From: Symmetrospora coprosmae
Lineage: Eukaryota; Basidiomycota; Cystobasidiomycetes; Symmetrosporaceae
Length of the DNA stretch: 64,000 nt
Assembly: GCA_008802785.1 (NCBI GenBank)
Contig: VUYT01000003.1
Span: 806,001-870,000 of the forward strand
Reading direction: 5' to 3'
Position numbers and translations under genes: made by a program. Below, piece by piece: positions 5,001 to 55,656 of this stretch. Position 1 is the first letter of the stretch. Every line of letters starts with the position of its first letter. The notes beneath the pieces were generated by a model that searched no databases, was not told where the DNA came from, and worked only from the letters and a program-made list of their open reading frames with translations.

Positions 5001-8000
5001 TGCTTCTCACCAACCTCAATCACCTCCTTCTTACTGCAAGCGATAAGGGCAAACGCGAGCTCTTTGTCGAGCTGTGCCTGACGGTCCCAGTCAGGTTGAG
5101 CGTTCTGCTGCCTTACTTGAACCATCTTATGCGGCCGCTTGTACTTTCGCTGCAAGCCAGCACAGACCTCGTCAGCCAGGGCCTGCGCACGCTCGAGCTT
5201 TGCGTCGATAACCTCACGCCAGAGTTCCTCAATCCCTTGCTGGCACCAATACAGCAGGAGATCAACTCAGCCCTGTGGCGACTGCTCAAGCCTCTTCCCT
5301 TCAACCACAATCATGCTCACACCACGGTCCGCATTCTCGGCAAGATCGGTGGACGAAATCGAAAATCGCTTGGTCCGCCCATGCTTGCGTGGAAGAACGT
5401 GACGGAGGAGGCCACAGCCACGCTCAGCTTCGACGGAAAGCCTCGCGAGGTCAGCATCTCGGCCATTGTCGAGCTCGCTCTCCGCATGATCCGCCGTGGC
5501 GATCTGCACTACAGGCGCAATGCGTACTCTGTGCTCAAGCACGCCTCGGTGGCTTTCCTGAAGGAGACGCTGGCGGCGGGCGAGCAGGAGATGACGTTTG
5601 GCCTCGTCCTGAAAGGTCTTGTCGAGGCATGCCGGATCGAAGAGTTCCAGGAGAATGCAGTGCAGTACCTGCGCAACTTTGCAGGTTACATCTTCACCAC
5701 CGAAATCTCGCGGCAACCGGCAGAAGATGCTGTCAACAAGCTTTCGCTACCACTGTCGTCAGCGCTCCTCGACGGCATGGTCGAGAGTCTGGCCTGCGTC
5801 CAGCACAGCGATACGCCTCGGCTGTCGAACCAGATTGTCGACATCATCCAGGATCTCGTCAAGTACTGCAAAGACCACCCTCCCAAGCGGGAAGATCTGC
5901 CCACGGCCCTCCTCCACCAGTTTTCGATGCGACTCGGCTCGCTGTGCTACGATCACTCGTGGCAGCGCAAGAGCGGTGGCGCCCTCGGCATCAGCCTGCT
6001 CGTCAAGCGCGTCGAGCTCGGTCAGCCCTGGCTAATCACGCACGAGTCCGAGTTCGTGCGGGCGCTCATCTTCATGCTCAAGGATATGCCCACCGATGCA
6101 CCAGGGAACGTGCAGGACGTCACCGACACGATCCTGCACATCATTCGCGCCTGCAACGACCCACAGGCGAACGACGAAAGGACGGCCGAAGACCGGGAGA
6201 AGCAGCAGAAGTACATTGTTGGCTTCCTCGTCGTCGAGTTGTCGAGCCAGATCGCGCTCGTTAGAACAGCCGCACAGGCGGCCCTGCGCCTCATCTCGGA
6301 GCTTACCCAGACCACCCTGTCCGACATCATCGGGCCAGTCCGGGGCAGACTGCTCAATCCTATATTCACAAAGCCGCTGCGGGCCCTAGCGTTCCCGATG
6401 CAGATTGGACACATGGACGCCATCACTTTCTGCATGACAACGCAGCCGCCCCTGCTCGAGCTGGACAGTGAACGGGAGCGGCCTGAAGGCGCGCCGGAGA
6501 AGGATCAGCGGGAACGCGAAAAGGAGAAGGAGATCGAAGTGTCCCTTGGTCGCCTCTTGACGGAAGCTCTGGGCATTGCAGACGCAGATGATCAGGCACT
6601 CGGAGGAGTAAAGCCCGGACACCACTCCAACACGACGCAGCTCACGCAGCTCCGCATCGTATGCGTCCGCCTTCTTTCGGCAGCCATGTCGTCTTCGGAC
6701 TTCCTCGCGCCCAAGCACCACCAGATGCGCAACAAGATCCTCCAGGTGTACTTCAAGCTCCTCTATGCCAAGTCGCCCGAGGTCGTCGCTGCGGCTTACG
6801 ACTGCCTCAAAGCGCCCGTGCAGCAGGGCAAGCTGCCAAAGGACTTGCTGCAAACCGGCCTGCGGCCTGTGCTCGTGAATCTCGGCGACCACAAACGCTT
6901 GACGGTCGACAGCTTGCAAGGCTTGGCAAGACTGCTCGAGCTCCTTCCCAACTACTTCAAGGTAGAGATTGGGCAGAAGATACTGGATCACTTCCGCGCT
7001 CTGGCGGATCCAGCCACGCTGCCCCTGGCTGCGCTAGCACCGCAGTCCGACAATGGCGCGATGAACGTCATGGCATCGATCATCAACGTCTTTCATCTTC
7101 TGCCGCATCCGGGCGCGGGCGGCTTCCTCCAGGACGTGTGTGCCATGGTCGTCGAAGTAGAGCGAAGACTTCGCAAGGCAACCACCAGCCCGTTCACGAA
7201 ACCGCTGGCAAAGTACGTCAGTCGCTACCCTGTCGAAGCTGCAGCCCTGTTCGGGTCTCAACTGCGCGACGAAGGCTGGTCGACCACACTTCAAGCCATC
7301 ATTTCGCATGAGGAAGGCAAGGGATTCCGCGAGCATGTGTCAAACAACGCCACCATGTTCTTTGCGCCCGCACTCACCGAGGAGGCGTCTCAGACAAAGG
7401 CCATGCTCCATGCGGCCAAGGTGATGCGAGCCATCATGAAGGTCACGCCTGAATGGGTGCTGCAGGCGAATGACATGATGAATCGGCTCGTCTCACGCTG
7501 GACATCTCCCTTACGGCGACAGCGTCTGCTCTCCGAGGGCGAGTCGCACCTTGCACAAGTCCGCGAGGATCTGGTCCTGCTGCAAATCTTCATTCCATAC
7601 CTTGAGCGCATCGAGACGCCCATGGGCATCGATCTCATTCTCCGCATCGTCGATGCCTTCACCTACCGTAGTCCAGCCGACCCGAGCTTCCTCGCGCGCT
7701 TCCTCTTCCGCCATGTCGCTGCAAGCAAGAGTGACACGCTCCGCCTCAACATACTCCGCCGCTTCATCGACTTCTTCGACAATGAGGGCATCAACCCCGC
7801 GCACAAGACCATGGCCCTGCGGTACATCATCAACCCGCTTCTGCTGGTCGCGTTCTCTCGCGGCGAAAAGGACAACGTCATTAGCGATCCAAGCTACATG
7901 AATCTTGTTCACACGAGGATCTGGGTGCCATGGCTGCGTGACGATAGCGCTGCGGGCATTTCGCAGGATGCACTCCGAATTGAGGGTCTGTACATGGCCA

Positions 8001-11000
8001 CTCTGATCGTGAAGAATCGATGGCAGGTCATGCTTGATTGCAGGAAGGACGTCATCAAGCTTGGTTGGTCCTACATCAAGACACCCGATCCGACGACAAA
8101 GACAGCCGCGCACTACCTCATTGCGCAGTTCTTGGCCGTGTACGATTCCAAGCCAAAGATCTTGATGCCCATTTACACCACCCTACTCCGATCTCATCAA
8201 GTTGAGGCACGCAATCTCGTCAAAGAGGCCCTTAATGTGCTGGTGCCAGAGCTGCCCAACCGCTGCCCGGGCCTGGAAGGCGGTGTCCACCCGTGGATTC
8301 GGGCTGCACGGCACATCATGACGGAGGATGGACACGCAAACACTTCGCAACTTCAGCACATCTACAACATCATCATCCGCTTCCCGGATGTCTTCTACGA
8401 GAGACGGGACCTCTTCATCCCAAACATGGTCACTTCGCTGCCCAAGTTGTGCCTGCTCAGCACGGCGACACCAGAATCTCGCTCCATGTGCATCGATCTC
8501 ATTGAGCTCATGATGAACTGGGACAAGCAGAGGCTGAGGCTTGCCAAGGAAGAGGAGGCGGCCAAGATGGACACGGATGCACCGACTGCAACAGACGAGA
8601 CCATCACCACTGCTGCGGACCTACCGCCCAAGCCGCACGCTTCGCCAAAAAGACTGTCGTCCATTGCTCCGTCAACCACAAGCCAGTCCTCCGGCGCCCA
8701 TGGCTACACCGTCCCCCTGCCTCTCCGGGACAACATCCTGAATGGCGCGCTCATTCGCTTCATAGCCAGCACGCCGGAGCCAGTAGCCCGCGGAGGCATC
8801 GTCAAGCGTTCGCTCGAGCTCCTTCGCCAGCTTTTCGAAGTTTGGCCGGACGTCAACATCAAGTTTGCGTTCCTGCAGAGAGTGCTCGCCGATACCGATC
8901 CTTCGGATCAGAACCACCTCATCATGATCTGCAACACGGTCGATGTCCTCAGCACAGTCATTTCGCTCAAGCAGGATGATTGGATCAGGGAGAACATTGC
9001 CGCCCTGCACAAGGTTACCGAGCGTGGTATGGCGCAGCAGGATGCTCGCCTGCACCTGGCTTACAAGTATGTGCTTGCTATTTGTTGCGTATCAGAATGA
9101 AGGGCGTACCATAGCTGATGCACCCCGGAATGTTCCTTAGACCCGTCGTTCAGCGAATCCTATCTGTCCTGCCATCATCGGCCGAGAGAGACCTCCCACT
9201 AACCGAAGGCACGAAGACAGCATTGCGGGCGGTGGAGGAATGGGCGACCTCCACGATCAATGATGGCATCAGGTCGCTTACCAACCTGCACGGCACAATC
9301 ACCATGATGGAGGCGTGGGCCGCAGTCAGTCCCAACAGCGTCGATCAGTTTATGAGCTCGCTTGTCCGGCTCGTCACCACGCTGTCGAAGGAGCACATCA
9401 ACACCGCCACGCCCAACGCGACCCATGAAGTACACCTCCGACTCCTCAAGAGCTGTCTCGAGCTTTGTCGAACCCGCATGGCTCACACCGGGGACGGCCG
9501 ACGATGGGTCCTGAGTGCCCTCTGCACTCTGGTGGAGAAGTCGCCGAACCTCGACCTCTGTCAATTCATCCTCGACATGGCGGCCAAGTGGGTTTTGGAA
9601 GATCACCGCGAGGCCTTCCCGACCAACAAGGAGAAGGCGACACTTCTCGGCAAGATGATGGTGTTCGAGAAGAGGCCAGACGAGTCCCTCCTCCGGGACT
9701 TCCTGCAAACCATCCTGGCAGTCTACTCGGACCCGCAGCTAGCACGATCAGAGTACACCGTCCGCCTGGAACAGCCCTTCCTGCTGGGTTGTCGGAACCG
9801 CGACCCGCTTCTGCGCTGCAAATTCATGGATCTCTTCGATGAGGCCATCACACACGGCCTGCACGGACGTCTGAACTACATCTTTGGCATACAGAGCTGG
9901 GAATCACTTGCCGACACCTACTGGATGCACCAAGCGCTGGACCTCCTGTTGGGTGCCGTAGAGCGGGAGACTCGTCTAATGCCTGCTGGAGATGCCGCAG
10001 GTGGGGGTGAAGCAGTTAATGCTGCGTTCGTGCAGGAGCTTCAGGCCTATAATTCTGGAGACTTTGTCGACGCTACGCGCAAGCTGCTCTACTCGGATGC
10101 CGACGCGAGCTTCACCGTCTGGGTCAGCCTATTCAAGCAGGCATGGTCTTGCCTGCCCCGGAATCAGCAGATTGACACATCAAGGTACCTCATTACGCTT
10201 CTTACGAAAGAGTACCATCTGCAGAATGTGGACCGCAGACCAAACGTCATCCAGACCCTACTCGCTGGCGCTCTCGCCTGTGCACCAGCGCTTCCATTGC
10301 CGCCACACCTCGTCCGGTATCTCGGCAAAACGTACAATGCCCACCATGTAGCAATTGAGCTGCTGCACAACGTCATTGACGACCATCGAGACGAGGATAC
10401 CATTCGCGAGTCTGGCCTCGACGCCCTGGCGGAGACATACGCCGAGCTGGCCGAGAGCGACGCTCTCTACGGTCTCTGGCGTCGTCGCGCTCAATTCTCG
10501 GAAAGCAATATTTCAATCACTTACGAGCAGGCTGGAATTTGGGGTCAAGCGCAACAGATGGTGAGTCCTGCTGTCCGCGAGCCCGTGTGTAGCTTCGTAT
10601 GACTGACATCACCTCGGACATTTCCAGTACGAGGCCGCGCAGCTCAAAGCTCGTTCCGGCGCTCTGCCATTCACCGAGTCAGAGTACAATCTTTGGGAGG
10701 ATCATTGGATCGCCTGCGCCGAGAAGCTGCAGCAGTGGGATATCCTGACGGACCTCGCAAAGGCCGAAGGCAATAACGAGCTGCTCCTTGAGTGTGCCTG
10801 GAGGCTTCAAGACTGGGCGCAGGACAAGACGGCCGTCCAAGAGACCATCTCCAACATGATCCCGGCGCCAACGCCGCGGAAGCGGGTCTTTGAAGCCCTC
10901 ATGCTTCTCATTCGCTCGCAGACCGGCGAGACTATCAATCCGGCCGACTTCCAACGGGTATGCGACGAGGGCATCCAGTACAGTCTGCGCAAGTGGTACC

Positions 11001-14000
11001 ACCTTCCGGACATCATCGGAGATTCGCATATCCCGCTCCTCCACATCTACCAGCAGTGGGTCGAGCTGCAGGAGGCTGCGAAGCAAATTTTCGTCTCGCT
11101 CGCCAGCACGGACAGCAGCAATCTGGATGTGAGATCGACGGAGATGAAGCAGACATTGCAGACGTGGAGAGACCGCCTTCCCAACATCTGGGACGACGTC
11201 AATATCTGGAGTGACTTGGTTGCCTGGCGACAGCACATCTTCCAAGCCATCAACCGTGCCTACATGCCGCTGGTACCGCAAACGGGTCCCAACCAGGCAG
11301 CAGCCAGTGCCAACTCGCACGCCTACCGAGGCTACCACGAGATGGCTTGGATCATCAATCGCTTCGCGCACGTGGCTCGCAAACATCACCTATCGGACGT
11401 CTGCAGCCAATCCCTCACAAAGATCTACACTCTTCCAAATATTGAGATCCAGGAGGCTTTCTTGAAGCTGCGGGAGCAGGCAAAGAGTCACTACGGGAAC
11501 CCGCTCGAGCACAGCACTGGTCTAGAGGTCATCAACAACACGAACCTCGCCTACTTCAATCCGATGCAAAAGAGCGAATTCTTCACTATCAAGGCCATGT
11601 TCCTGTCGAAGCTCAACCTGCCAGAGGAAGCCAATCAGGTCTTCACGCAGGCTGTTGGCCTCGACATGAGCTTCCCCAAGGCCTGGGCCGAGTTCGGCCG
11701 CTACCACGACCGCCTCTTCAAGGCGGATCCGACCGACCTCACCCGAGCGAGCAACGCCGTCTCCTGCTACCTCCAGGCTGCAAGCTTGTACAAGAGTGGC
11801 AAAGTCCGCAAGCTGCTCGTGCGCATTCTCTGGCTTCTGAGCTTGGACGATGCGAACGGCACCGTCGCAAAGGCATTTGATGCCTACCCGGGCGATCTCC
11901 CCGTCTGGTACTGGATCACCTTCGCGCCGCAGCTCATCACAGCGCTTGGTAACCGCGAGTCGAAGTATGCACGTATCATACTCTTGCAGATCGCCAAGAA
12001 GTATCCGCAGGGTCTGTTCTTCCATCTCCGCACAGCTCGCGAGGAGCTCAATGGCATTCAGAAGCAACAGGCGGATCTGGAGCAGCGGGCGAAAGCGGCT
12101 GCCGCTTCCGCTGCCGCTGCTCGAGGGGAGACGCAGCCCGCTGTAGCCAACGGTGCAGCTCAGAGTCCGAGTTCCAGTGCACCCAATCAAGCTAGCGCTA
12201 TGGACGTCGATGGCTCCCAGTCACAATCGCAGGGCGACCAGGCGAATGATGGTGATGCCTCGTCGCAGGCGACGGTTGCGCCAAAGGAAAGGACCGCTCT
12301 CGAGCACGTCGAAGACATTGCTTCGCAGCTCAAAACGGCCTTCCCTCTCCTGGCACTTTCGGTCGAGCTGGTTTGCGATCAGATCGCATCACGCTTCAAA
12401 GCTGTGCCGGATGAGGACATCTTCCGTCTTATCAGCGCCCTGCTCCAGGACGGTCTGCAGGTACGTGCTGAGCAAACATGCATGGCCAGTCGTTACATGA
12501 CTGACATCTTCATCGTCCCTCGGACTGGCAGCAATACATTGTTCGAACGCCCAACCCGGACGACACTGGCCTGCTCGCGCAGCCAACTCAGCTCAACATC
12601 AATCGCTTCGCTGGCAATCTGCCCAAGCACCTTCAGGTGCGCCTGCAGCCTGCTCGTTGACGATACATCTGAGCTGACCACATCCCCTCTCTGCTGCTCC
12701 AGGAATCCTTCAAACAAGATTTCGTCATCTCGAAGCCGAACTTGCGCCAGTATGTGCAGCGACTGCAGGTCTGGCGAGACCGCTACGAGCGCATTCTCGA
12801 TCGCAAGCCAAAGAAGCACCCTCTCGAGACGCTGAGCCACTGGCTTGTCGAGTACAAGTACCAGACCTTTGACGACATCGAAGTTCCTGGACAGTACCTG
12901 AAGGCAGAGGACAACAACCGGTCGTTCGTCAAGATCAGCTACTTTGCGCCCAAGGTTGAGGTCGGCAGATTTGGGGGCGCTTTCGCTCGCCGCCTCAGCA
13001 TGATCGGCCATGATGGCAGCTCCCATACGTTCAATGTGCAGATTCCGCTGCCCAGAGGGTCGAGGAGAGAGGAGAAGATTTCGCAGTTCTTCAGGATGCT
13101 CAACGGGTATGTCAAGATGCGCGTCAGCTAGGACCCTGCAGAGAATGCTCCCTTGCTGACGATGTTTCACAGGCCACTCGCCAACCACGTCGAGACACGC
13201 AAGCGATCTCTACAATTCCACCTACCAGCGATCGTCCATGTCGGGCAGATGTGCCGGCTGATCGACTCGGACTCGTCTGTCACCACCTTGCAAGATGTCT
13301 ACGAGAGACACTGCGCAGACTCTGGCGTGAGCAAGGACGATCCCATCATGGCATATACGGAGAAACTGCGAGAGATTGTCACGGCTAGCCGGGGTAACCC
13401 AGCGTTCGTGCAGTCTGCCGCCAAGCTCGATGTCTACATCGAGATCGCCACAAAGCTCTTCCCAGACACAATTCTCCGAGACTATTTCACCCGCTCATCA
13501 AGCTCCGCCAGCGACCTCTGGCACACCCGCAAGCAGATCACGCTCCATCTAGCGGCCTTCATGTTCCAGACGTACCTCTTTAGCATTGGACGCCGTCTCC
13601 CGGCCAAGCTGCTCATCACGCGATCAGGCGGTCAAATGCACACAGCCGAGCTCGTACCGGATCACCAATCCAGCAAGCCAGAGTTTTCAAACAACGAGCC
13701 CATTCCCTTCCGCCTCACCCCAAACATTCAGACTTTCCTCACGCCAATTGGCATCGAGGGTGTTCTCGTCACAGCCCTTACATCCATTGCCAGGTGTTTA
13801 ACGGAAAGCGAGGTGAGCTGCTGCGAACATTCCACTGCAGTTCGCATCGTCTGACGCCTTCCCTCTCTCGTTGCAGTACGATCTCGAGCATCGGCTGGCA
13901 ATCTTCGTTTCCGAGGAGATGCAGTTCTGGCACTCGAGCCGCAAGCTTGCAAAGCCTTCGGACACGCGCCTGCGAGACTTGACAGTGACAAATGTCGATG

Positions 14001-33846: not shown

Positions 33847-36800
33847 TTACTCTGCTGGTGCGACTACCGAGACTGCCGGCACCGCTGCTGCTGCCTCCTT
33901 CTTGACTCCGGCGGTGCGGCACGCCGGACAGGTATTGGCGCCCTGCGAAAGCCACCGATCGACACAGGGTTGATGGAACGAGTGCTTGCAGGCGAGAATT
34001 CTGACGTCCTCGTCCGCTTCGTAGTCTTCGAGGCAGACTGTCACAAAGAGACGGTATCAGCTGATGCGCATCTTACGCGCGAACGAAGCCAACTCACCCA
34101 GGCATCGATCTGCCGTAATGCTGAGGATCTTCTCTTCTTCGAGATACTGCCCGACTTGGCCACCCTTGATGACCTGTAGATCCGACATTGCGATCTCGTC
34201 TGTCGTAGCGGTGGGCTGCTTGTGCGAGCCGAGCACTTCTGCGAGGCGCAACATGTCCTCGTACGACAGGACGTCATCGGATAAAAGGTTGGGCGCAATG
34301 ACGAGGGGATGGTTCGAAGGGTAGAGCCCGCCCATGATCCATAGGACGAATCCTTGCGAGACGGAAGGTGGAGTGACGGACTGCGCGCGCGGCAGTGTCG
34401 ACGGAGCGGGAGCAGGGGAGCTACTCGGGCGGCTGGCCGACGCGATGCTTTCGAGCTCATCGATATCATCGTCGTCGTCTGCTTCGGCGTCGATATCCTC
34501 GTCGTCATCGCTCGGCAGGGGTATGTCTGCCGGATCGGTGGGAGAAGGATTGGCTGCGGGAGCTGGAGGTGCCGTCTCGCCGACTGAAGAAGCAGCGGTT
34601 GCGCCGGATCCAGCATCCGCAAGCTCGTCCGCCAGCGGGCGCGTCATGCTCCGCACGCCGACGAGGAGTAACGGCACAACTTCCGCATTGGTCGGGACTT
34701 GCAGTGGGCCGAACATGCTGGGCGGAGACGGGGGCGTTGCAGCTGTGGCTGCGGCATGAGGCGATCTAATGTTACCTGTCGGTGTATCCGTTGCCGCGGT
34801 CGTGCCTGACGTGTCGCCAACTTCTGCATCTTCCGACTCTGCCGAGAACGAGCCAGGCATGACCGGCGAGGTCGGACGGGCAGACTCGGCTGGGGCCGCG
34901 GGCGTTGCATTCTCGGCGGCAGCAGCTTCGGGGACGAGCGAGGCGACCGGTCGTGCCGGAAAACGATAGCTCCGGAAGAAGGTGAAGCGAGCTGGAGTTG
35001 TGTTTGCTGCAGTTGCCGGCGAGCGAGGCGTTGCATCTGATCGCAGTGCATCTGCTGCCGCAGCAGAGTCGCGGGCCTCCCCGGGGGCCTCAGACAAGAG
35101 AGGCTGTGTCTCTTCGATAGTAGTCGAAGAGCTGCTGGGGCTGGCGTTGTCGCTCTCCTCACTCCCTTCTTCACTTCCAGCCGGCGCAAGTGCCGCCGAT
35201 GCCAGACTCGCATCCTCGTCTTGCTGAAACCGTAGAATGGAGGTCGCGATACTGGGGAGGAAACACAGAGATCAGCGGGGGTTTACCTCAGCTTGCAAGC
35301 AGTAGAAGGGCTCACTCTGTCTGCATATCCGCAAGGAAGCGCTCGAAAGTCCCGACCGGCTGAGCCCGACCGTGTGCGAGGGTAGGATCGAGGTGGAGCG
35401 CAGTGATCGGCACCGCTAGCGGAGATGGCCTGCTGGTTGAAGGAGCCGCGCTCATTGCCGCCGGTGACGACGGTACTGCATCAGAGACAGGCGATGTGGA
35501 GGCGTCTTCCGACAACGGCAAGGCTGCAGCTGATATGGCGGGCGTTGCGGACTGCTCGGTTGCAGTACCATCCCTTGACGTGCTGAGCGGCGAAGGCGAG
35601 GCGAGAGGTGGCGTGACGGCCTCGCTCTGTGCGAGTGAAGGAGATGCGGGCGGTGAAGCTGGGGGTGTCCTGAATGCAGCAGCTAGCGCGTTGCGTAGAA
35701 TATCCTGCAGGGATCCGCTATTCTGGCCACGTGTCGGACCGGGTGACGAGAGGGGCGCGGAGCGAGTAGCAGTAGACGGCACTGGCACCGAGTTGCTGCG
35801 CGACCGACTGGTTGTCTGCTCACTCGCCGGTGCCGAAGCTGCGGAGGGTGTTGCACTAGATGCAGCGGTTTGCGCACTGCTCGCGGAAGAAGCTCCAGCG
35901 CCAGTGAGCATACCGCCGTCGCTGTCGTCGAAGCCAGAGATCGTCTGGCCGTTCATGGTAATGGCGCCCGGCAGCAGCGTTGCAGCAGTAGCGGCAGCCG
36001 CAATGCTGAGCAGGCGGCCAATGAGGGCGCCTTGCTGCGTCCTACTGTCTGAATCATCTGGTGTCTCCACGTCGGCCACTGGAGTTGACGCGCCGGTCGT
36101 CGCACCATCGCTGAACGCGGTCGACCTCCTGCCTGACCGGCTATCCTCTGTCGGCAGCGCAAGGAGCTCGGCCACTGCATCCTCCCACATTGATCCCTCA
36201 GGCGACGTTATCCGTCCCTGATCTGGCGAATCAGAGTCTGGACCAACGTCTTCAAGGACAGCCTCTGCACCCGGGAGCTCGCTCCAGAAGCCGCTATCGC
36301 TCGCACGCGCATCGTTTTCATCGGATGTAGATCCGATGCGAGGCGAAGAAGTGGAGGGCGTGCGCAGCGGAGAGGCACGTCGAGGGAACGGGGCAGTCCG
36401 GCGGCTGGGAGGAGTACGTGTCACGGGTGGCGTACGTGCGACCGGCGGCGTCCGCGCAGGGGCGCGAGCGACAATGCCTTGCACCAAGATGCGCCGCGGA
36501 ATCGTCACCTGTGGTGTGCCGGTCGGCGTGGGCGCTGGCGGACTGGTAGCTTGCGATGCCGGCTGTAGCGGCCTTGTAGCGGGCTCGGAATGCGTCACGG
36601 TCTCGCTCGGGGCCACGACAGGCTGTACGGGCTCGGAGATCGAGACAGGCCGCCCTCCCGCTGAGGAGCTTCCCTCGCCGTCAAAACCCGCCAAGTCACT
36701 CCCCGTTGCTGCCTGAACCGCGCCTCCTGGAATGGCCGGCTCGGGCTCGCTCGCTGCTAACGGAGCTGATAGAGCCGCGACGCCCGGAAGCATGGCCCGT

Positions 36801-37816
36801 GGCGTATCTGCGTCTTCTGGAGTATCGGGCGATCTGGCCAATTCTTGCAGGAGGTCAGGCTCGTTGTCTGCCGCGTCGGAGTCTGGGCTGTTTGGGAAGG
36901 CCGACGTCGTGGGGCTCGCCGTGATGGGTATGACGCATTCCGGCGGTTCCAAGGCATCGTCTTCGTTGGGTGCGCGTATCACTATCTCCTGCGATGAAGG
37001 CGTGTGGGGCGAAGAGAACGTCTGGCGTTCTGGGCTGCGAGAGACCTGGTGCGCATCGGCTGCATCCGAGTCAGACTCCGGGATGCGATCTTGGCTGAAC
37101 GAGTCGGAGAAGGCTCGGTGCAACGAGGGCGGCAACGGCACACTTGGAGCATCATCGTGGCGCAAGCCGTCCGCAGAGCGTTCGCCACCGGTCCGCCTGC
37201 TCCCGGCGCTTCTGAGCTTGTCCATGAAGCTCCTGCGTCGCGGGAGGGGTGATAGAACAGGAATTGAGTCTACGGGGACTCTGTCGTTGCTGCCTGTATC
37301 CTTCCCTGCCGCGCTGGCGCTCGCGGTCGACCATGTCGGGCTCCTGAGCGTCGCCACCGACCTGTCTGACGAGGTGCGCGAGTGTCGAGGCGAGTCACGG
37401 TAGCTGGATGCGCGGATGGTGCCGATGCTCGACGACTTTGAATGCATTCTCCTCGCTGCCAGGCTGGGCCGCGATGCTGTCTTGCCGTGGTATGGCTGCT
37501 GTTGCTGCTGCTGCTGCAGCTGCTGCTGCATCGTCCCCGTCATGCCGTCATCGCCGCCTCGACTCGACGATGGCAACGGCGACGGCGACGAGCTCTCCTG
37601 TCCAGCATCGCTGCGGATGCTCATCACACTGCTCGTCCTGGAGCGCAGTGCCCGCTTCTGGTCCATCGTCGTCCTTGCTGCTGACGCTGCCATCTCCGCC
37701 GTGTCGCCGTCAGTAGCAGCAGCTGCTGACGAGGTGTCCAGGGATGCCCGTCGCCTCTCCCTTGCTGCTTCTCCTGCAGAGCCTCCCAGCCCAAGGTGCG
37801 ATGCGACTTGGCCCAT
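33847..37816 (-). CDS. RING-H2 E3 ubiquitin ligase with N-myristoylation signal
   Basis: Exons: 37816-35316, 35251-34098, 34037-33847; 3,846 nt, 1,281 aa. The protein starts MGQVASHLG, with Gly2 and Ser6 as in N-myristoylation sites. A very long Ser/Pro/Ala-rich disordered region (about 1-1,190) contains polyQ near residue 100, a Thr-Pro/Arg-rich segment PPVARTPPVTRTPPSRRTAP, and one conserved-looking helical patch GTFERFLADMQTDIATSILR at the first exon junction. The RING-H2 is formed only after the last splice: CLVCLEDYEADEDV, then CKHSFHQPCVDRWL and CPACR, giving the C-x2-C...C-x-H-x2-H-x2-C...C-x2-C pattern. It probably ubiquitinates targets at a membrane; substrate unknown. Confidence 0.85.
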
Positions 37817-38319
37817 CTCTGCAGGCAGTCTGCTATTATACGTTGTCCCTTGTTGTGCTGTGGTTGGACCGGACGGGGACCGCGCACAGTCGCGTCCGGG
37901 CCGTCACTTGGGGCGCGGGCGATGAGATCAACAACGTCGCGGTGCGGTGCGGCTGCTGCCTTGTGCGATGATGACTGTCAATGATGCACTTCACGCAGAC
38001 GTCGAGACGATTGACAGTAGAGCCGAGGTGTTTGCGCGTAAAGAGCGGGCTGACCGAGCAGCCTCATCAAGACACACACCGCCACAGAGAGGCACAACCT
38101 TCTGCAGTGGCATTAACGTAGCAGCAGATCAACTATAGGAGACAAATGTAAGGAAAGAGTACCGATATACTATGCAGGGTATCGTCGCGCGTGTGTATGC
38201 GAGTCGCAATGATGGAGGGGAAAGAAGGCCTTGCTGAAGTTGCTGTTGCCCCGGAAACTTACTCTACAACAGCCCTTATTGCTCTGCTCGTATCGTCTCG
38301 CTCTTACAGATCTTCACGC
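37817..38319. promoter_or_regulatory. Spacer with RING-H2 gene promoter and PDK1-like gene 3' region
   Basis: Tandem spacer of 503 bases, both neighbours on the minus strand. A TTATAC-type AT-rich patch near 37835 is the only promoter-like element I noticed. No gene is supported. Confidence 0.35.
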
Positions 38320-41300
38320 TCACGATGCTTGAGTGTCCGTTGACGCCTTCCGCCTGCCCGTCGCCGGCGCCTTCACTCTCTGCAGAGCATTCTTAGGCAT
38401 GGTGAGGAACTTGAGCCTGCACACGGGGGTATCAGCGATTGAGCCATACACCACAAAAGGCAGACTGGGAGATGGTCAACGCACCACTTGCTCGTACTCG
38501 CACCCCGCGGCCTGCCGCCCTCGCTGCTATCCTTCGATTCTGATCGCGCAGAATCCGTGCGCATGGCAGCGGACCCACCGCCGCTCCCGCCGGCCGAGGT
38601 AGGGCTGAGGTTCCTGCCCCACGCGCCATTCGACCCATTCGTGCTCGCCGTCCCCGGTCTTCCATCGCGCTGCGACTCTGCCCTGTTGGAGCTCCGGCTC
38701 GAGCGAAAGCTGGCGTTCCCGCCTCGAACGGTGCCAGCAGTGAATGGCGCATCGCCGGCGCCTCCAATGGGCGACTTGCCGTTCGTATGCGCCTGCGCCC
38801 TCGGCCACGGCACGTCGCCTCTCGCTGCCGTTGCGCTGCGCGGCGAGGCTGGAGGCAGCATCTCAAGCTGCTGAGGCGGGATCTGCAAGGGCGCCAGAAC
38901 CGACGGCGAGGCCATGCCGTTCGGAGTCGTAGGGGCTTCGGCCCCTTCTTCATCGCCCGCAAACAGGCTCTCTTCTGCATCTCCATCCTCTCCGCTGACG
39001 CTGTCGTCAATGCTGCTCTCCGACAGCGCCAGCATGTGCTTGGGAAAGACGGTCGGCGCCGTCATGCCCGTCTCCATCTGCGGCGGGTCGACCGTCCAGA
39101 TGGTGTCAAAGTCCACGGCCGAAAAGAACGGGTGCTCCTTGATCTCGTCCACGCCCCGCTTGCTGCCTAGCCGCTCCAGCGGGTCCAGCACGAGCAGCTT
39201 CGACACCAGATCCCTCGCGTCGTCTGGGAACTCTGGCGGAAAGTCGTAGTCGAGGCGTGTAATCTTCTGAAAGATGAGATACTCGTTCGGCGCCCGGAAC
39301 GGGGTGCGCCCGCAGATGAACTGGTAGAGGACGCAGCCGAACGCCCAGAAGTCTGCTGCGTGGGGCGGAGGGAGCGTCCGCGCAACCGCGGCCGGGTCCT
39401 TGCTGAGGTCTGGTAGCGGCTTTGCTGTCAATAGTTCCGGCGAGACGTATTGAGCGGTCCCGACAAAGGAGTTCGACCGTGACTGAAGGTGATCCTCTGA
39501 CGACATTGACTGACATTAGCAATGTCGAAGCAGGGAGTGGGCGGGCAGGTCCTCACTCACCAGCCGACACGTTCTCGACTGATCCATTCGGGCTCAACAG
39601 CTTGGCCGTGCCGAAATCAGCCAGCTTGATGCGCATCTTTTCATCGAGAAGCATGCTGCGAACGGAGGAGCATATGCATTAGATGCTGTACGAGCACACG
39701 AGATGGGTTAATGATGGCTTGTCTCACTTCTCAGGCTTCAGGTCCCGGTGCACCACCCCTCGCTTGTGCATGTGCTCCACGGCAGAGATGACTTGTGCAG
39801 CGTAGAAGCGAGCGACATTGACCTCGAACGAGCCGTAGTCCTTGATGAATTTGAGGATCTCGCCGTTACTTGCCAGCTCAAGGACAAAGTAGAGGGAGCG
39901 CTCGTCGTGGAACGTCCAGTACAGGCGAATGATGCCCGGGTGCCGATCCAGTCGAGCGAGCGTCTCCTTCTCGACGTTGACGTACTTGACTTTGCGTTCC
40001 TGGAAGCAAGCGAAACATGACCGTCAGTTTGTGGCCGCTCTGTCAGACCGGTCCACATCGGGACTCACCTTGATGATGTGCTTCTTGTCGAGCACCTTCA
40101 GAGCATACTGGCGATGTGGCGGAAACTTGTCCGTCGCCAAAAAGACGGTGGAATAGCTACCTTCGCCCAGAATCTCGCCAAGGTCAAAGTCTGATGCCTT
40201 CTTGTGGAAGTTGTTGCCGATGCTCGCGCTGCTGTTCGTGCGCGAACCGAGGCCCGGCCGCACGCTGGACAGCGGGCGCAACATGCCATTGGGTGTCGCG
40301 GTCCCATGCGGACCCGCAGCGAGCATGAGCTCTGCCCCAGGTGTTGTAGGAGGTCGGAGCATGGCGTATGAGCTGCTCCCGTTCTGCTGTAGAAGCGGGA
40401 ATCCTTGTGGCGCTTGCTGTTGAGCTGTTTCGGCGGGTCCCCCGTTGCTGGCAAATATGCTTCCTGCAACGGGAAGCGCGATGATTGCGGGACGTGGGGT
40501 GCGCCCACTTCCTATTGTGTTGGCGTGGAAGCTGCCATTGGCAGCTGCAGATGCAGCCGTTGCTTCAGCCGCGTAGAGAGCGGCTGCTGAGGGCCCTATC
40601 GTCGCATTGGAGCCGGATGCGCGGTGCCCGCTCAGGCCTACATTCGAGGGCGCCGAGCGCAGGGATGCTTCATCGACAATGAGGGGCAGCAGCTTTGGCT
40701 CGATGGCCGCCACGGGGACGACGTGCACCCCCGGAGCGACTGGCAGGGCGCCGCGAGGGACCGGGTTCGAAAAGCTGTTCCTGGCTGTCGTGTATCCGCG
40801 CGTGCCACTACCGCCAAAGCGGGGGGGCAGCAGAGTGGGAAAGTACGATGTCCGTCCTTCTCCCGATGTAGAACCCGCGCGCGAGTTGCCTCCCGCCGGC
40901 GTCCGAAAAGGCGTCATGCGGAACGGCGTGGCGTACACGGAGCTGCTCGACGATGCGCGCGAGAGGCCCGACACGCTCGAGTCGCTCGAGGTGCTGTCCC
41001 CTCGTTGCAGCGCGACGGTCACATTCTTGTTGAGTGGGCGGTTGTCCGAGTCTGGGTCAGGTGACGATGCAGCCGAGATGTCGGCCGCGTCTGCGTGGCC
41101 TTCCTCTGCCTGTGCGGGAAGCAATGCATGCTGCGCGCCAACGTCTTCTTCTGCGTTGTTGCCTGGGTGTGCCTGCTGGTGCTGCGATGACTGTTCGCGC
41201 GTAAGTCGCCGCGCATGCGGGTGCGCGACTGGCAGCGCCGCTTCCTCGAGGTCGCGGTCGCTCGAAGGCGCGCTCACGCTGTCCCCTGGCTCGAGGGAAG

Positions 41301-41739
41301 AGGTGGACAGGTCTAAGCTGAGGGCGGCGTAGGGTACACTGCTGCCATTGCTGTTGTTGACGGGCGAGCCATCGTCTATTTCTGCTGCTGGGAACGAGCT
41401 GGCGCTGCCGTCGCCGACAGCTGCGGCGTCGTCGCGGCTTGCCTGTCGCTTTGGGCGCGTAGGCGTACGCGGGTCTTCCTCCTCGCTGAAGCCAATGCCG
41501 CCTGCCATGCCATCCCCTCCCGCTGCTGCTGCACCTCCCGGCTGCACGACAAACATGGATGTCGAGGCAGATGCAGACGCAGAGGCGGGCGTAGTCAGGC
41601 CAGACTGCTGCAGGCTGGTCAGACCCAGCGAGTCGCGCCGCCGCTCTCCGAGGCTGCTGCCACTGCTGTAGTCGTGGTGGTAGTGCTGCCGTCCAAATGC
41701 ATCCCCGCTGCCTCCCCTTGCGTCCACCAGCATGTCCAT
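38320..41739 (-). CDS. PDK1/Pkh-type serine/threonine protein kinase
   Basis: Exons: 41739-40069, 39999-39728, 39655-39561, 39496-38485, 38416-38320; 3,147 nt, 1,048 aa. The N-terminal 515 residues are Ser/Gly/Ala-rich and disordered. The kinase domain (about 517-811) shows GEGSYSTV, ALKVL (ATP-binding Lys), HRDLKPENMLLDEK restored across an intron, LADFGTAK, and the PDK1-typical activation loop SRSNSFVGTAQYVSPELL, then DFWAFGCVLYQFICGRTPF. PDK1/Pkh kinases phosphorylate the activation loops of AGC kinases such as Ypk1, Sch9 and Pkc1, downstream of sphingolipid signals in yeast. The tail ends soon after KWLKFLTMPKNALQR with no PH domain. The start is the first in-frame ATG; upstream open frame lacks a Met and overlaps the neighbouring gene's last exon. 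Confidence 0.92.
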
Positions 41740-42064
41740 GGTCTCGCCAGATCTGCCCTCGATTCCGTAGAACTCCGCCCGCGAGCGAGCGAGCGAGGCA
41801 GAGTTGGCGCCGGGACCAGCGCTCAGCTGTAGCCGTGGTGCTGGTAGTGCTGCTCGGTCGTCAGATCTAGCTGGAAGAAGGTCATTGGTACATGCGAATG
41901 CGACGTGATGGTGCTGGGCGGTTGATCTGATGCTGATACATAGCGATGGAAGGAGTGACAGGCGAGAGTCTAGACCGAAAGAACAGAGCTTGCAGAGCAG
42001 ACTACAAAGGTCCCAAAGAGCAGGCGCACAGCAAGCACAGCACTCGCATCCACATAGGAAGAGC
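41740..42064. promoter_or_regulatory. Promoter/5' leader of PDK1-like gene
   Basis: 325 bases between the dioxygenase stop and the kinase ATG, both on the minus strand. The kinase reading frame stays open through here but codes an implausible Cys-rich stretch without Met, so I treat it as leader and promoter. No TATA box stands out. Confidence 0.45.
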
Positions 42065-43857
42065 TCAAAGCCCAAATGCGACCGTCGTGGCTCCGTAGAG
42101 TCCAGAGAGGAGCTTCGTCTCGCCGCCTTCGCCTGTTTGGGAGCCAAGGGTCCATCAGCACAGACCTCTATTTCACACAAGCTTGCTCCGAGCGCTCACC
42201 TGCTCCTTGAGCAACATAGATAGGGACAAAGTGTTCCTGTTGAGAGCATCCATCCATGAGCAACCTGCTGCGCACCGTCCCGGAAGAACGGCCATTCAGC
42301 CTACCTCGCGCGGATGTGCGAGTCTGAACTCTGGCTCTTTCGTCAGGTTGAACAGAGCCTCCTTGCGCTCGCTTGTCTAGAATAGGCGCCACATCTCGGT
42401 GTCAGCTTCTTGGTCGCGCCCGGCTGCTGTCCAACATGCCAATGCCTCGCGCTCACCGTTCCCTTGGCCCGCACAGCAGCCACGACCTTGTCATTCCAAC
42501 CATGGTAGAGCTAAAGCCAAACATCGGTCTCAGCAGAGGATACATGGGAACGCGTGAAGGCAACCGCTGCTCACTGGCTGAGCCGTCTTCTCGTTGAAGG
42601 AGGACATGTCCTCGAAGCTGTGCACTGTCAGTCCGCCAGACAGGATGAGGATACCCTCATCTCTGCATGAGGTCAGGAGCCAAAGTGAGCTCGAGTCCTC
42701 TCACGTTGCTGCTCATCTACAGGGGGATGAGCGCCATCCCACCTCAGGGCTTTGATTGCCTTCCCAATCTGGTATTCCGTCTCCGGACGCAAGTCAGACG
42801 AGATCGAGACCTCGACAACGGGAACGTCGAACGGTCCTTGCGTATCTGGGAACATGATCTTGAAGGGGATGAAGACGCCTTCGTGGTTGAGACATCCAGC
42901 TCAGTCGTTGTGGCCCAGCAAAGGTCGAATCTGGTTGGCGTGGGCTTACCATGGTCGAAACCGCTGGATACCAGCGGTCTTTTCTCCCTTCTCCCGTCGC
43001 GGCCTCTACTTTCCGATGCAGGAGAAGTCCGCGCATGCATGCCGTTCTTGGTGAATTCCTGAGCCACACGCTGGGACAGCTGAGACGAACCGCGAGAGCG
43101 CCAGGCGATGTCGTACAGCTTCTGAGGGAAGCCGTAGTACTGGCAGAGGAGACAGCGTCAGTCAAATCGGCCTGGGAGCTGTAGCGTAGAGGGTATCACG
43201 AACGTCGTAAAGCAGCGGGTTTTCGGCGCCATAGTCGGACACTGCGCGACGACCGGAGCGTCAGAAGGCGGACTGGACTGGTTCCAGGACATTATGCGCA
43301 CCAAGCCTTTCTCCGCCCGTCTCCCAGTGCGCAGAGAACACCACAATACCCTTGGGGCGATACCTGCGCATGCCGGAGGGTCAGCTCGCGGAGGCATGTT
43401 GGAATGGCCGGAATCTTGCACACTTCTCGAGCAAGACCTTGCCAAAGTCTTTCAGAAAGCCACACAGTAGGCCATCGGGCTTCGAGATCTCGCCGAACTG
43501 AGGCCAATGCGCGGGATGACCAGCATCAACAGTGTATCAGCACCGGACTATCGTGCTGCCAACGGCGTGGGGACTGACCAGGTCCGCCCGCGGGTTGGGC
43601 ACGTCCTTGGGCCAGAGCAGCGTAGGGTGGCCGTGCGCAAAGAAGAAGGAGGGGATGCGTCCCTTGGTCGCTGCGAGGTCTGGGAGCTCGTTCAGTGCAG
43701 CCTGCCATTCTGCGCGAGATGCAAGGACTCCAAGCTGATTGCGGGCCATTCTGGGCGACTGAGAGCTGCGAAGTGACAGAGGGGCAGACGTGTGGTACCA
43801 GGCGAGAGCTGCGAGGATAAGAGCGGCTGTGGAGGATGAGAGGAAGAGGGTGTGCAT
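42065..43857 (-). CDS. LigB-family extradiol ring-cleavage dioxygenase (4,5-DOPA dioxygenase type)
   Basis: Eleven exons: 43857-43579, 43497-43424, 43363-43302, 43241-43204, 43139-42950, 42878-42743, 42662-42575, 42510-42457, 42376-42305, 42236-42200, 42132-42065; 1,098 nt, 365 aa. Diagnostic segments: PSFFFAHGHPTLLWPKD (metal His), FGEISKPDG, PKGIVVFSAHWE (metal His), DYGAENPLLYDYYGFP, GFDHGVFIPFKIMFP (catalytic His), ILSGGLTVHSFEDM, and HPREEHFVPIYVAQGAGEGG. This is the class III, non-haem Fe(II) or Zn-dependent dioxygenase fold of plant DODA and bacterial YgiD; the fungal substrate is unknown (catechols, possibly DOPA). The N-terminus has a hydrophobic stretch LFLSSSTAALILAALAW that may be a signal anchor; an alternative in-frame ATG (MARNQLG) lies at 43749. 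One donor is GTTCGT and one acceptor AAG. Confidence 0.9.
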
Positions 43858-50590: not shown

Positions 50591-52034
50591 CTAGCGGAGA
50601 GGGCTGAAGGGAAGTGGGCTGAGGATCTGTGCGCTCATGTGGTCTGTGAGCTTGACGGTCTGTGCAGAGTGAAGCAGGAAGCAATAGAGACACATCAGCT
50701 TTGGAGCGAGCGAGCGAGTGCAAGAGAGGGCCGGACCTTTGCCACCGTGTTGCTCCAGGTGTCAATCTCCCACGCGCGCTGCCGCATCTGCTTTCGGGAT
50801 TCCATGCTGTCGTAGTGCCACATGTGGATGACCTGGTGCAGCTCGCCGACCTGGGCGAAGAAGGCAGCGATTGGCTCGACGAACTGCTTGCGCGCCTCGA
50901 GGCCGACGCGCCTGTGTGAATGTGCAAGCATGTCAGCGATGCGGAGCGCAGGGCGGCCTTGACGGGACGCACCACTCCTGCTCCCATTCGAGCAGTGATC
51001 CAGGTTTCTGTGAGGGCGAGCCGTTTGATCAGCTCGCGAAGAGCTCTCGAGGCGCGCGCATCCACTCACGAGCGAGTAAGTGCGCATCTCGTAGATGCCG
51101 CCGAGGACTTTCGGCGGGGAGGACGGCCAGAACGAGAACTCCTGGATGAGCTGCGAGCTGCGGCTGACGAGTGTCGGCGCAAGACGAGCAGCAAAGTCTT
51201 GGTACTCCTGTATGGATAGGGAGGAGTAGTGTCAGAATGACGAGCTGCGCGCTCGCTTGCGCCCGCAACGACCGACGCTCACCTTGCTCGCAGCCATCTT
51301 TGGCACGACCTCGTCGTAGCCGTGGAACCCGCTGTGCTCCCACTGCGAAGCATACGAGAGCAAGCGTCAGCGGATAGCCCTGCCTGCAAGGGTGGAGACG
51401 CCTTCGGGCGATCGCCTTACGACGTGGTCTGAAGGCGCAAAGGGCAACGAGAGGGCGTCAGCGGACGCTAGTATGCTAGTTTAGGCGCATGGATACGCAC
51501 AGAAGGTGTCGAGCTCGCCGACGATGACCTCCCAGGATCCCGTGAGCTTGATGTCAACGTCTGGGTTCTTTGCGAGGCTGTCGTAGAACTGCGCGACGAG
51601 GCTCTTGTACTCGTCGACCCTGTCCGGCTTTACCCTGTGCTTGTACAGTTCGTGGATGTACTTTCCCCTCCCGAGCACCTTGGAGTATCCTCGGTTGCCG
51701 CCCTGGCTGCCTGCTGCCTGCGCGCCGCCTTCGCCTTCGCCGTCCACCGTGGGGGCCTCGGCCTTTGCCTTGTCGGAGCCATACAGCACGGACTTGGTGG
51801 AGGGCAGCAGCAGCAGCAGCAGCAGCGGCACGTCAGCTGGCAGAGAATATCTCCTTGCAGCGCTGCTGCCTGTCTGCTATGCCTCACCTTGAGCAGTCCG
51901 CCCTTCTTCTCGTCTGCGAACTGACGGCTCGACGTTGACAGCCAGGCCCGCGAGGATGACGCTACAGGCGCGGATGTGCCGCAGCGAGCAGCTGCTCTGC
52001 CACTGATGAGAGACCGTCGGAGCGCAGTCTGCAT
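50591..52034 (-). CDS. NIPSNAP family protein, mitochondrial
   Basis: Eight exons: 52034-51888, 51792-51501, 51428-51421, 51342-51283, 51207-51070, 51007-50973, 50911-50737, 50659-50591; 924 nt, 307 aa. The N-terminus (MQTALRRSLISGRAAARCG, then SSRAWLSTSSRQF) is a mitochondrial presequence. Two NIPSNAP ferredoxin-like halves follow: KYIHELYKHRVKPDRVDEY with GSWEVIVGELDTFYHVWEH and GYDEVVPKM; then LIQEFSFWPSSPPKV, GIYEMRTYSLKPGSLLEWEQ, and GELHQVIHMWHYDSMESRKQ. NIPSNAPs are mitochondrial matrix/outer-face proteins linked to mitophagy signalling in animals; the fungal role is unknown. The third exon has only 8 nt (ACCACGTC), and joining it is needed to read DTFYHVWEHSG. Confidence 0.92.
51805..51825. 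repeat. (CAG)7 microsatellite
   Basis: Seven perfect CAG units on +, lying (as CTG) just upstream of the NIPSNAP exon 2 acceptor on the minus strand. Confidence 0.9.
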
Positions 52035-52261
52035 TCTGTGCTCGTTGCTATGCTGCTGCTGCTGATGTTGTGCTTGTGCTGGCGTGACGGAGACCTCGAA
52101 TGCGCGACGACAGCGGATGCGGGGCGCCGTCATCAGGCTCGAGGGATAGAGCTCCACATCAGCCAGGCAGGCACAGAGCCAGGACATCGCAAGAACAGCA
52201 TGTTGGTCGTACCGTAATTCTTACAGGCATACACGACTGCGGATAACATGGTCAAGGATCC
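52035..52261. other. Short spacer between NIPSNAP and repeat-protein genes
   Basis: 227 bases, both flanking genes on minus. It contains the NIPSNAP 5' leader, including CAG/CTG-rich sequence near 52050-52075, and the 3' end of the repeat-protein gene. No gene. Confidence 0.4.
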
Positions 52262-55200
52262 CTACATGCCCATCCTCAGCCGCTGCAACCGCTGCTCCTC
52301 GTTCATCTGCACCATCTGGTTTGTCCGCCTGTCATTGTCCATCTCTCGCAGAATCTGCCTCTTCTGCTCGGTCGCATTGAGCTTCTCTGTAGGCGGGACA
52401 ACGTTGCGCAATAGTCAGCTCTGACGGCCTCATGACGCTCGACCAAGGGACTGCACTCACGAGCCTGCGAGAGACCGGGCATCTGCTCCGTCTTCTGCGC
52501 GATGCTCAACCTGATCCTGTTGGCCAGATCCCTAGTAGGGTCGGGACCAGCGAGAGACCTCGACAAGCTGCTCGTTGCCAGCTCCGGCTGTCTGGCCATC
52601 CTAGCGGCAAGAGCCAGGTTCGGCTGGCGCTGCAGGACAGGCGCGAAGCGGGATTGGAGACCGGGCGGGAGCTGCGTTCGGAGAGTAGGAAGGGCCACTC
52701 GCGGAGGTGGGAGAGCGCGCGTGCCGTTCATGAGCAGCGGTGCGCTGTATCGCCTGCCGAAGAAGGACGACAGACCGAGGCCTGACAGATGCGGCGCAAG
52801 CAGCGTCAGCGCATTTCCCGGTCGCGCTCGCATCATCTCGCAAGCTCACCCAGCATCCGTCGCTCCGCCTCCTGCATCTGGTAAAACTTGAGCCGCCTCT
52901 GCCTCTCATTGAGCTCCTGCCATCTAACGCGCGCCCTCCACCTCCGCAGCTTGACCTCGTCACGCAGCCTCCGATCCGCTCGAAGCGCATTTTCGAAACT
53001 GACGAGATCCGCAAAGGCAATGGCGCTCTCCTGACCCTGTCGCAGCGCCTGAGTGAAGTAGTTCTTGCTTTGATATGGCTTGAACATACTCGCCAGAGTG
53101 CTCGAGACCGGGTACGACATGGGTCGAAGCGCGCGCGGGTCGTAAAGATCGATGAGGCCGAGTCGTGAGTCCCACTAAAGTGCGAGCAGCCTGTGTCAGT
53201 GTTGTTTCGCGCTCGATTGAATGCAGGCCCCGCACTCACGTAGCCTCCCGTGAGACCGAGCGACGTCCTGTCGGTGTACGACATCTGCCCCCACCTCGTG
53301 CGCCGCTCGAGCTCGTCCAGCTGCTCAAACTCCAGCCTCCGCCTCCATCTCGCCAGTCGCTCGCTCTCCTGCAGGTTCCGGTCGTACTTGAGCGCGTTGC
53401 TCCACGCGAGCAGATCCGAGTATCGCGCGTAGCCGGAGTCCATGTACGAGCACGTGTTGAGGCCGCTGCTTCCGCTCATGTACGGCGAGTAGACGCTGCG
53501 GAGCGTCGAGGGAAGCTCGTACGGCAGCGACATGCCCTGGAAGTTGGCCGACGAGGCGGCGTACAGCGGACCCTGCCAGGAGCCAATGAGACCCAGACCG
53601 AGGCGCTGCGGCATAAGGAGCGATAGTAAAGTCAGCGAATTCATCTTCGAACTGCCATTTATACCGGTACGCTCACCTCCCTCTCCGTCTCTGGCATCTG
53701 CTGCCACCGAAGCCTCCTGGCATCCGCGTCGAGCTGCTGCCACTCCATACGCTGCTGCCAGCGCGCCATCCTCTCAGCCTCTCCAAGCGCCTTGTCGTTC
53801 ATCAGAGTCTGCTGATAGTATGCGAGGTCCGCAGCCTCCCTGAATCGCGAGTCGTCTGAGAAGTATGGCAGTCCGCCGAGCGAGCTGGCGCCCGAACCGT
53901 AGAAGTCGGAGTAGCGGCTGCGCAGGCTGCCAGTCAAGCCGTGCGGCATGCTGGAGTATGATTTCAGGTAGTAGTTGGGATTGCCGTACCCGAGCGAGTA
54001 ATCACTGCCGTAATAGGATCCTGCGCAAGGGTGAGAGTGTCAGTCTGAGCACAGGAGCGCAATGCGCGGGCTGACTCACCAGGGTTGGAGTAGTAGCCGA
54101 AGGCAGAGTATGCAGGGTCGTAGCTTACGCCTCTGCCGTACTGGCTGCCGTAGTAGCCCGTGTCCAGACCAAGCCGGCTTCGATAGCCGGGTGAGTAGGA
54201 GTTCCAGGTGGATGCTCGGGCAGCATCGTCGAGCGCATCAAAGGCGAGCCTGTCGCGCATGATGCTGTCTCGCTCGCTCTGCGCGATAGCATTGTTAGTG
54301 TAGAGGCGGTTCTCAAAGTTGGCGAGATCAGCGTATTGCAGGCCCTGCGGTGGTGTGGTGAATACGTCAGTCTACACCGAGAAGCGCATGCAGAGGCGCG
54401 ATACTCACAGCCGAGCCGAGTCCGGAGCCAGCGCCAAGACCATCGTACGCGCCATAGCCGTACGAGGTGTGCCCGAGCAGGCCGAGGTCTCGGTCGTAAT
54501 GCGAGTCGCCATAGAGGCTGCTCGACAAGCCGCTGCCGAGCCCGCCGTAGCCACCGCCTACGAGAGAAGCATCGCCGTATCCGAGGCCCCGGTCCAGCGA
54601 GTGGCCCGCACCGTATCCGCCCAAGGTCGAGCTGCCATATCCGCCGAGACCGCTGCTGCCTGCATACATGCCCGCTCCTGCTCCCAGAGCTGCTCCTCCT
54701 AGTCCGAGCGCGCTCGCTCCCAGCACGTCGGAACCATCCAGGCGTCCGAGATTGTCGAGGCCAGTGTCGTACGTTGACCAGCCAGAGTTGCCGAGCCCGG
54801 CGAAACCGGCATCGTAGCCTGCCGCACCGAGACCGAGACCGGAGCTGCCCAAGCTGCTAGAGCCGAGAGTATCGAAGCCAGCGTTGTAGTCGGAGAAATG
54901 GGCGCTCTCGAGCGGGGACGCAGCAGCGGCCAGACCGCCGTAGCCCACCGTATCGAGCCCGCTCCCCATTGCGCCCACGCCTCCGAATGAGCCGTAGCCG
55001 TCCACCCCTGAGGAGTAGGCGCCGAGGCCGCTGTCGTATGAGCGCGAGAGGCCGTCGAGGCCAGCGTCGAGACCGCTGTCGAGCGCACGAGACCCGCCAA
55101 GACCGCTCATATCGAAGCTCGAGGCGCCCAGCGAGTCCAGCCCGCCGCCCAATGCCTGCCCGTAGCCCGCATCGTACTGGCCGCCGCCTTCAACGCCCGA

Positions 55201-55656
55201 GAGGAACGGGTCTGACAGACTCGAGCTGCCGAGAGTGTCGAGCGCACTCCCTCCGCCGATGCCGCCGAGCCCGCTGGAAAGGTCGAAGTTGTCAAAGTCG
55301 CGAGCTTCGGGGATGTTGAACGCGCCAGGCAAGCTGCCAGCCCCTCCTCCGCCGCATTCGTACGGGTCGCTGAAGCCTCCTCCTCCGGCGCCGACGCCTC
55401 CGCCGTCCGCTCCGTAAGCGTCCAGTCCTGACGTGTTGAAGGACGATCCAGCGAGGCCGCCGCCGCCATAGGTGTCGTCCAGCCCGGCTCCGAGCGTGTC
55501 AAATCCGCTGTCGTACTGCTGGCCGCCGGACAGAGCGAGCCCGTCATCGCCCAGACCGTAGAGCTGGTTTTGCAGGCCAGACCCGATGCCCGCATCTCCG
55601 TCGTAGGACCGATAGCGCCCTCCGCCGAGGGTGTCGTCACCGTCGTAGTAGGCCAT
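52262..55656 (-). CDS. Gly/Ser/Tyr-rich protein with four tandem helical modules, unrecognised
   Basis: Seven exons: 55656-54409, 54344-54080, 54020-53677, 53605-53240, 53174-52850, 52781-52461, 52386-52262; 2,994 nt, 997 aa. An upstream ATG exon (55950-55941) spliced to 55667 would add seven residues. Residues 1-416 are low complexity (Gly, Ser, Leu, Tyr, Asp; units like GLGGYGSSTLGGYG and YDTGLDNLGRLDG). Then four copies of an approximately 50-residue charged helix follow, with a consensus like ADLxxFxNxLxxDxxLxExxR-xARWxxRxEWQxLDxxxRRxRWxQM: YADLANFENRLYTNNAIAQS, AADLAYYQQTLMNDKALGEA, YSDLLAWSNALKYDRNLQES, FADLVSFENALRADRRLRDE. Linkers begin LGL and are Tyr/Ser/Pro-rich. No signal peptide or membrane segment. 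I know no family with this layout. Confidence 0.8.

Follow-up and report, generated by a model that had tools for sequence, protein, structure and literature searches.

In a fungal stretch of DNA of 64,000 nucleotides (hereafter the window), we identified a gene specifying a predicted protein of 997 aa, in which a Gly-rich low-complexity head is followed by four homologous copies of a 57-residue module. This is a real gene that carries no name, and its repeat domain is unrecognised by the libraries searched; its function can only be inferred. The reading we favour, to which we give a probability of roughly 0.45, is that of an intracellular, multivalent fungal scaffold protein with four helical docking domains and a flexible head and linkers.

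Gene structure and genomic context

The window has a GC content of 0.607 and contains genes for Tra1, RFX, TCP1 zeta, aconitase, NIPSNAP, UvdE, a HUN-domain protein and a sugar transporter. The repeat gene runs on the minus strand from an ATG at 55656 to a stop at 52262, with NIPSNAP as its lower neighbour on the same strand and the sugar transporter, on the plus strand, as its upper neighbour. In order to define the exons computationally, splice sites were chosen by eye and nearby GT/AG options were then tested in 48 combinations. A single combination keeps the whole frame open, yielding the seven exons, the coordinates and the 997 aa that had been proposed from the letters of the DNA (Table 1). 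The six introns measure 64, 59, 71, 65, 68 and 74 nt, and every one has GTGAG at its start, AG at its end and CTGAC inside (read by eye). Coding potential was scored with a codon model trained on the other ORFs of the window, which were picked by score rather than by annotation, with the repeat gene left out. Using the full codon score, the true frame tops all six frames in each of the seven exons; when amino-acid content was removed and synonymous choice alone was scored, it was best in five of the seven, with exons 6 and 7 failing.

Several other observations were made in the window. The likely start of NIPSNAP, placed by eye, is at 52034, leaving a gap of ∼227 bases (52035-52261) to the stop codon of the repeat gene. 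The Tra1 gene (2021-13851, plus strand) encodes central and ring HEAT regions, FAT and the PI3/PI4-kinase region, and is spread over a few long open frames. Two open frames on the minus strand have no Pfam match at E 0.001: one of 863 aa (35315-37903), which includes a GCT repeat at 37495-37529, and one of 723 aa (40027-42195) with coding-like codon use.

Table 1. Exons, modules and predicted linker helices of the repeat gene (positions in the window)
Feature	Position	Strand	Content and support
Exon 1	54409..55656	-	Residues 1-416; Gly/Ser/Leu/Asp/Tyr-rich low-complexity head
Exon 2	54080..54344	-	Residues 417-504 plus the first base of codon 505; contains module 1
Exon 3	53677..54020	-	Residues 505-619; contains most of module 2
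Exon 4	53240..53605	-	Residues 620-741; final 5 residues of module 2, linker, module 3
Exon 5	52850..53174	-	Residues 742-849 plus the first base of codon 850; contains most of module 4
Exon 6	52461..52781	-	Remainder of codon 850 through residue 956; last part of module 4, Leu/Pro/Arg-rich tail
Exon 7	52262..52386	-	Arg/Gln/Met-rich C-terminus and stop; fifth module a trace at most
Module 1	54162..54332	-	Residues 421-477; shuffles, profile
Module 2	53591..53832	-	Residues 568-624; split by intron 3 (53676-53606)
Module 3	53249..53419	-	Residues 682-738; shuffles, profile, AlphaFold2
Module 4	52774..53012	-	Residues 796-852; split by intron 5 (52849-52782)
Predicted short helix, linker before module 2	53899..53931	-	Residues 535-545; pLDDT <50; sequence support weak
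Predicted short helix, linker before module 3	53477..53509	-	Residues 652-662; resembles linker before module 4

Four homologous modules

The modules, starting at residues 421, 568, 682 and 796, align over 57 aa without gaps. When module pairs were compared against shuffled sequences, the real score was reached by none of 2000 shuffles in all six pairs (z 7.3 to 16.8). Furthermore, leave-one-out profiles built from the other three copies recovered modules 1-4 in the same register, with i-E values of 5.5e-9, 4.4e-20, 2.7e-19 and 1.1e-13, respectively, for a search space of one sequence. Ungapped pairwise identities are 19, 20, 15, 27, 24 and 23 of 57, with 10 of the 57 columns invariant across the four copies and module 1 the most diverged. 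The sequence-only reading had described four diverged repeats that nevertheless keep their register, and both parts of that description are borne out. At identities of 15-27 of 57, a gapless register with invariant columns suggests selection on fold or surface, as judged from the alignment.

Start-to-start spacing is 147, 114 and 114 aa, such that a period previously given as every 110-130 aa describes the last two intervals and not the first. Similarly, the modules had been called exon-coded, which is true of modules 1 and 3, each lying within one exon, whilst modules 2 and 4 continue past the following intron for 5 and 2-3 residues, respectively. A short motif is common to the linkers that precede modules 3 and 4 (score reached by 2 of 2000 shuffles); for the linker before module 2 the resemblance is weak, at 29/2000 and 131/2000 against those leading into modules 3 and 4, respectively.

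Tandem duplication of an exon-sized unit had also been put forward, and here the evidence divides. In its favour, introns 3, 4 and 5 fall 52, 60 and 54 codons past a module start, and a Leu-Gly-Leu stretch is found at or near the start of exons 4, 5 and 6; exons 4 and 6 additionally have 11 identical bases near their starts, at a one-base offset. For random positions on a 114-codon unit, the chance of lying within 8 codons is 0.017 for three of three and 0.060 for some three of four. Against it, the phases of introns 3-5 are 0, 0 and 1, and intron 2 (phase 1) lies 84 codons past a module start. As the intron phases differ, duplication of an exon-sized unit is not shown, and a plausible course, from the sequence, is that the unit was duplicated along with its intron and that boundary shifts followed.

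We also searched for further copies. A six-frame module scan of the window gave no other copy above the inclusion threshold among the top matches listed; exon 7 ranked fifth, under that threshold (E 0.59). The real score of the tail against the module profile was reached by 61 of 2000 shuffles for residues 958-997, 289 for 931-997 and 1505 for 853-997, and a profile search of the exon 6 tail found no further module. Compared with single modules, the tail score was reached by 2 of 2000 shuffles for module 2, and by 69, 730 and 608 for modules 1, 3 and 4, respectively. A fifth module in the tail or exon 7 is not established: the longer tail segments and the comparisons with modules 3 and 4 fail the shuffle test.

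Search for relatives

No named family had been recognised in the protein from its sequence, and this stands for the libraries we searched. With HMMER filters on, Pfam returned no family for the whole protein or its repeat half at E values up to 10; pieces of exons 1-6 gave a single row, for DUF6518 (exon 2; E 0.16; 11.9 bits versus a curated cut-off of 25), which we set aside as chance. The same six pieces had no match in NCBIfam. Among PDB sequences there was no credible match (best E 0.51 and 1.8); the rows at E 0.51-1.6, including the ABL1 SH2 domain, and capsid and protease rows at E 1.8-2.4 were all dismissed as chance hits. Foldseek searches of PDB with two module models gave best E values of 5.1 and 7.7 at a threshold of E <0.001, and viral models, searched with copy 3, nothing below E 5, although a Foldseek miss is weak evidence for so small a domain. 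Four weak rows in PHROGs (best E 0.0064) were rejected: each module matches at most one, to a different family every time, consistent with Arg-rich helices resembling one another by chance. Searches of prokaryotic species genomes, one exon at a time, produced 40 and 32 pattern matches with none confirmed, and viral contigs produced 2, again with none confirmed; both outcomes are as expected for a fungal gene. A literature search by wording, covering titles and the starts of abstracts, found no description of the protein, which carries little weight since words cannot find a sequence.

Accordingly, the term 'unrecognised' is limited to the Pfam, NCBIfam, PDB-sequence and Foldseek libraries, none of which represents fungal proteomes. 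The lack of a relative in such libraries would also be expected of a dispensable gene that evolves fast and is specific to its lineage, its repeats retained by fold alone. We consider this unlikely, as the register is conserved across four copies and a coding signal is present in all seven exons.

Modelled fold of the module

The helical character earlier ascribed to the modules is upheld by AlphaFold2 models of copies 2 and 3. For exon 4 (copy 3), mean pLDDT is 73.3 and pTM 0.66, with module block means of 87-93; helices are predicted at residues 676-692, 699-713, 717-726 and 729-734, and in the linker at 652-662. Exon 3 (copy 2) was modelled at lower confidence (mean pLDDT 59.9, pTM 0.47, module block means 72-85) with the same helix order, in a model that stops at the end of the exon, before the final residues of module 2. 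Both were built on one alignment of the four copies and are not independent tests. From the copy 3 model, the module is predicted to be a compact domain of three to four helices. Tandem small helical domains also occur in staphylococcal protein A, which appeared in weak Foldseek rows (E 9.3, query TM 0.20-0.24) that give no evidence of a common fold.

A compact modelled module, and the even 114-residue spacing of modules 2-4, would suit a filament or structural protein whose modules stack end to end across neighbouring molecules. This appears improbable, however, as the Tyr/Ser/Gly/Pro linkers are at low model confidence over much of their length, the first spacing differs at 147 aa, and the longest helix across the two modelled exons spans 17-19 residues.

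Low-complexity head and charge

Residues 1-416 form a low-complexity region of the kind originally described, with 29.6% Gly, 13.5% Ser, 13.0% Leu, 9.9% Asp and 6.7% Tyr (28 Tyr residues). Basic-type residues are scarce (1.9% Arg, 1.0% His, 0% Lys), and 45 acidic residues against 8 basic give a net charge of -37. We tested 15 patterns, picked after the head had been read, against shuffled sequences, and nine are enriched (count reached by ≤2 of 1000 shuffles). Two of the 15, D-x-L-G (8 occurrences, shuffled mean 1.6) and S-G-L (11, shuffled mean 2.2), were reached by none of 1000. The six patterns without clear enrichment are LGS (72 of 1000 shuffles), YGG (450), RG (939), GR (713), [YF]G (249) and FxFG (1000). 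On account of the enriched patterns, the head has a loose motif beyond mere composition; Tandem Repeats Finder reported two weak 21-base arrays within it. The highest 19-residue mean hydropathy anywhere in the protein is 1.4, so neither a membrane span nor a leader is evident.

FUS-like RNA-binding low-complexity proteins combine SYGQ or RGG repeats with an RNA-binding domain. The present protein shares with them a low-complexity region that includes Gly, Ser and Tyr, and differs in that the head contains many Asp and Leu residues and neither SYGQ nor RGG, and in that no RNA-binding domain was matched. Nor does it resemble FG nucleoporins, which have many FG, GLFG or FxFG motifs: the head holds one FG and the whole protein three, with no GLFG or FxFG in either.

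We consider it quite unlikely that this is an RNA-binding or RNP-granule protein, in which Arg/Trp helices would touch RNA and the Gly/Tyr-rich head would bring it to granules. The Arg content of the modules (12, 14, 18 and 25%) and the basic charge of module 4 (net +7) and of both tail parts (+8 and +5) are consistent with such a role, whereas modules 1-3 carry little net charge (-2, -1 and +1), the head has no RGG and no RNA-binding family was matched in Pfam. RNA binding by module 4 and the tail is possible; it is less so for modules 1-3, given their near-neutral charge.

Negative charge is reported to be over-represented and positive charge depleted in fungal low-complexity regions at large (PMC11878562), a bias that the head follows, as a general trend rather than a mark of family. 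A role in a septal plug or the cortex had been guessed for this protein. In a study of the SPA and SPP septal-pore proteins (PMC10023807), 13 of 23 SPP proteins have sequences of high predicted disorder, disordered parts were needed, where this was tested, for the proteins to accumulate at septa, and the SPP/SPA disordered regions have a bias towards Arg and His and away from Lys and Gly relative to FG-nucleoporin, SR-factor and DisProt sets. The present protein is similar to those described there in having a long, probably disordered region next to an ordered one. A septal-pore plug or cortex component, with the head aggregating at the pore and the modules anchoring it, is nevertheless very unlikely: nothing found here points to the septum, and the Gly-rich, Arg- and His-poor head agrees with the reported SPP/SPA composition (PMC10023807) solely in its low Lys, although those proteins are from Pezizomycotina and the comparison is a weak test if this fungus belongs elsewhere.

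A possible scaffold protein

In the scaffold reading, each of the four module copies would offer a similar docking site, serving either a single partner or the other copies, and the acidic Gly/Tyr/Asp-rich head and the Tyr/Ser/Gly linkers would be flexible, permitting weak association at many points. Through such association, the molecules may collect into an assembly or condensate. Scaffolds commonly combine repeated domains on flexible linkers with an adjacent stretch of low complexity. We infer the intracellular location and the docking function from this layout, and condensation from composition by itself, for a head that is nearly Arg-free and has one FG and no RGG or SYGQ motif, which counts against the proposal. 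Also against it, module net charge ranges from -2 to +7, and the four sites may therefore differ in how they bind. A further, more doubtful proposal is that the 57-residue module is an undescribed domain confined to one fungal lineage, and that this protein is the scaffold on which an assembly specific to that lineage was founded.

Should relatives exist in other fungi, the module could be added to domain libraries as a new entry and would offer a testable handle on the putative scaffold. For now the protein is one among many unnamed fungal proteins, and stands out because its four modules are clearly homologous and one of them has a high-confidence model.
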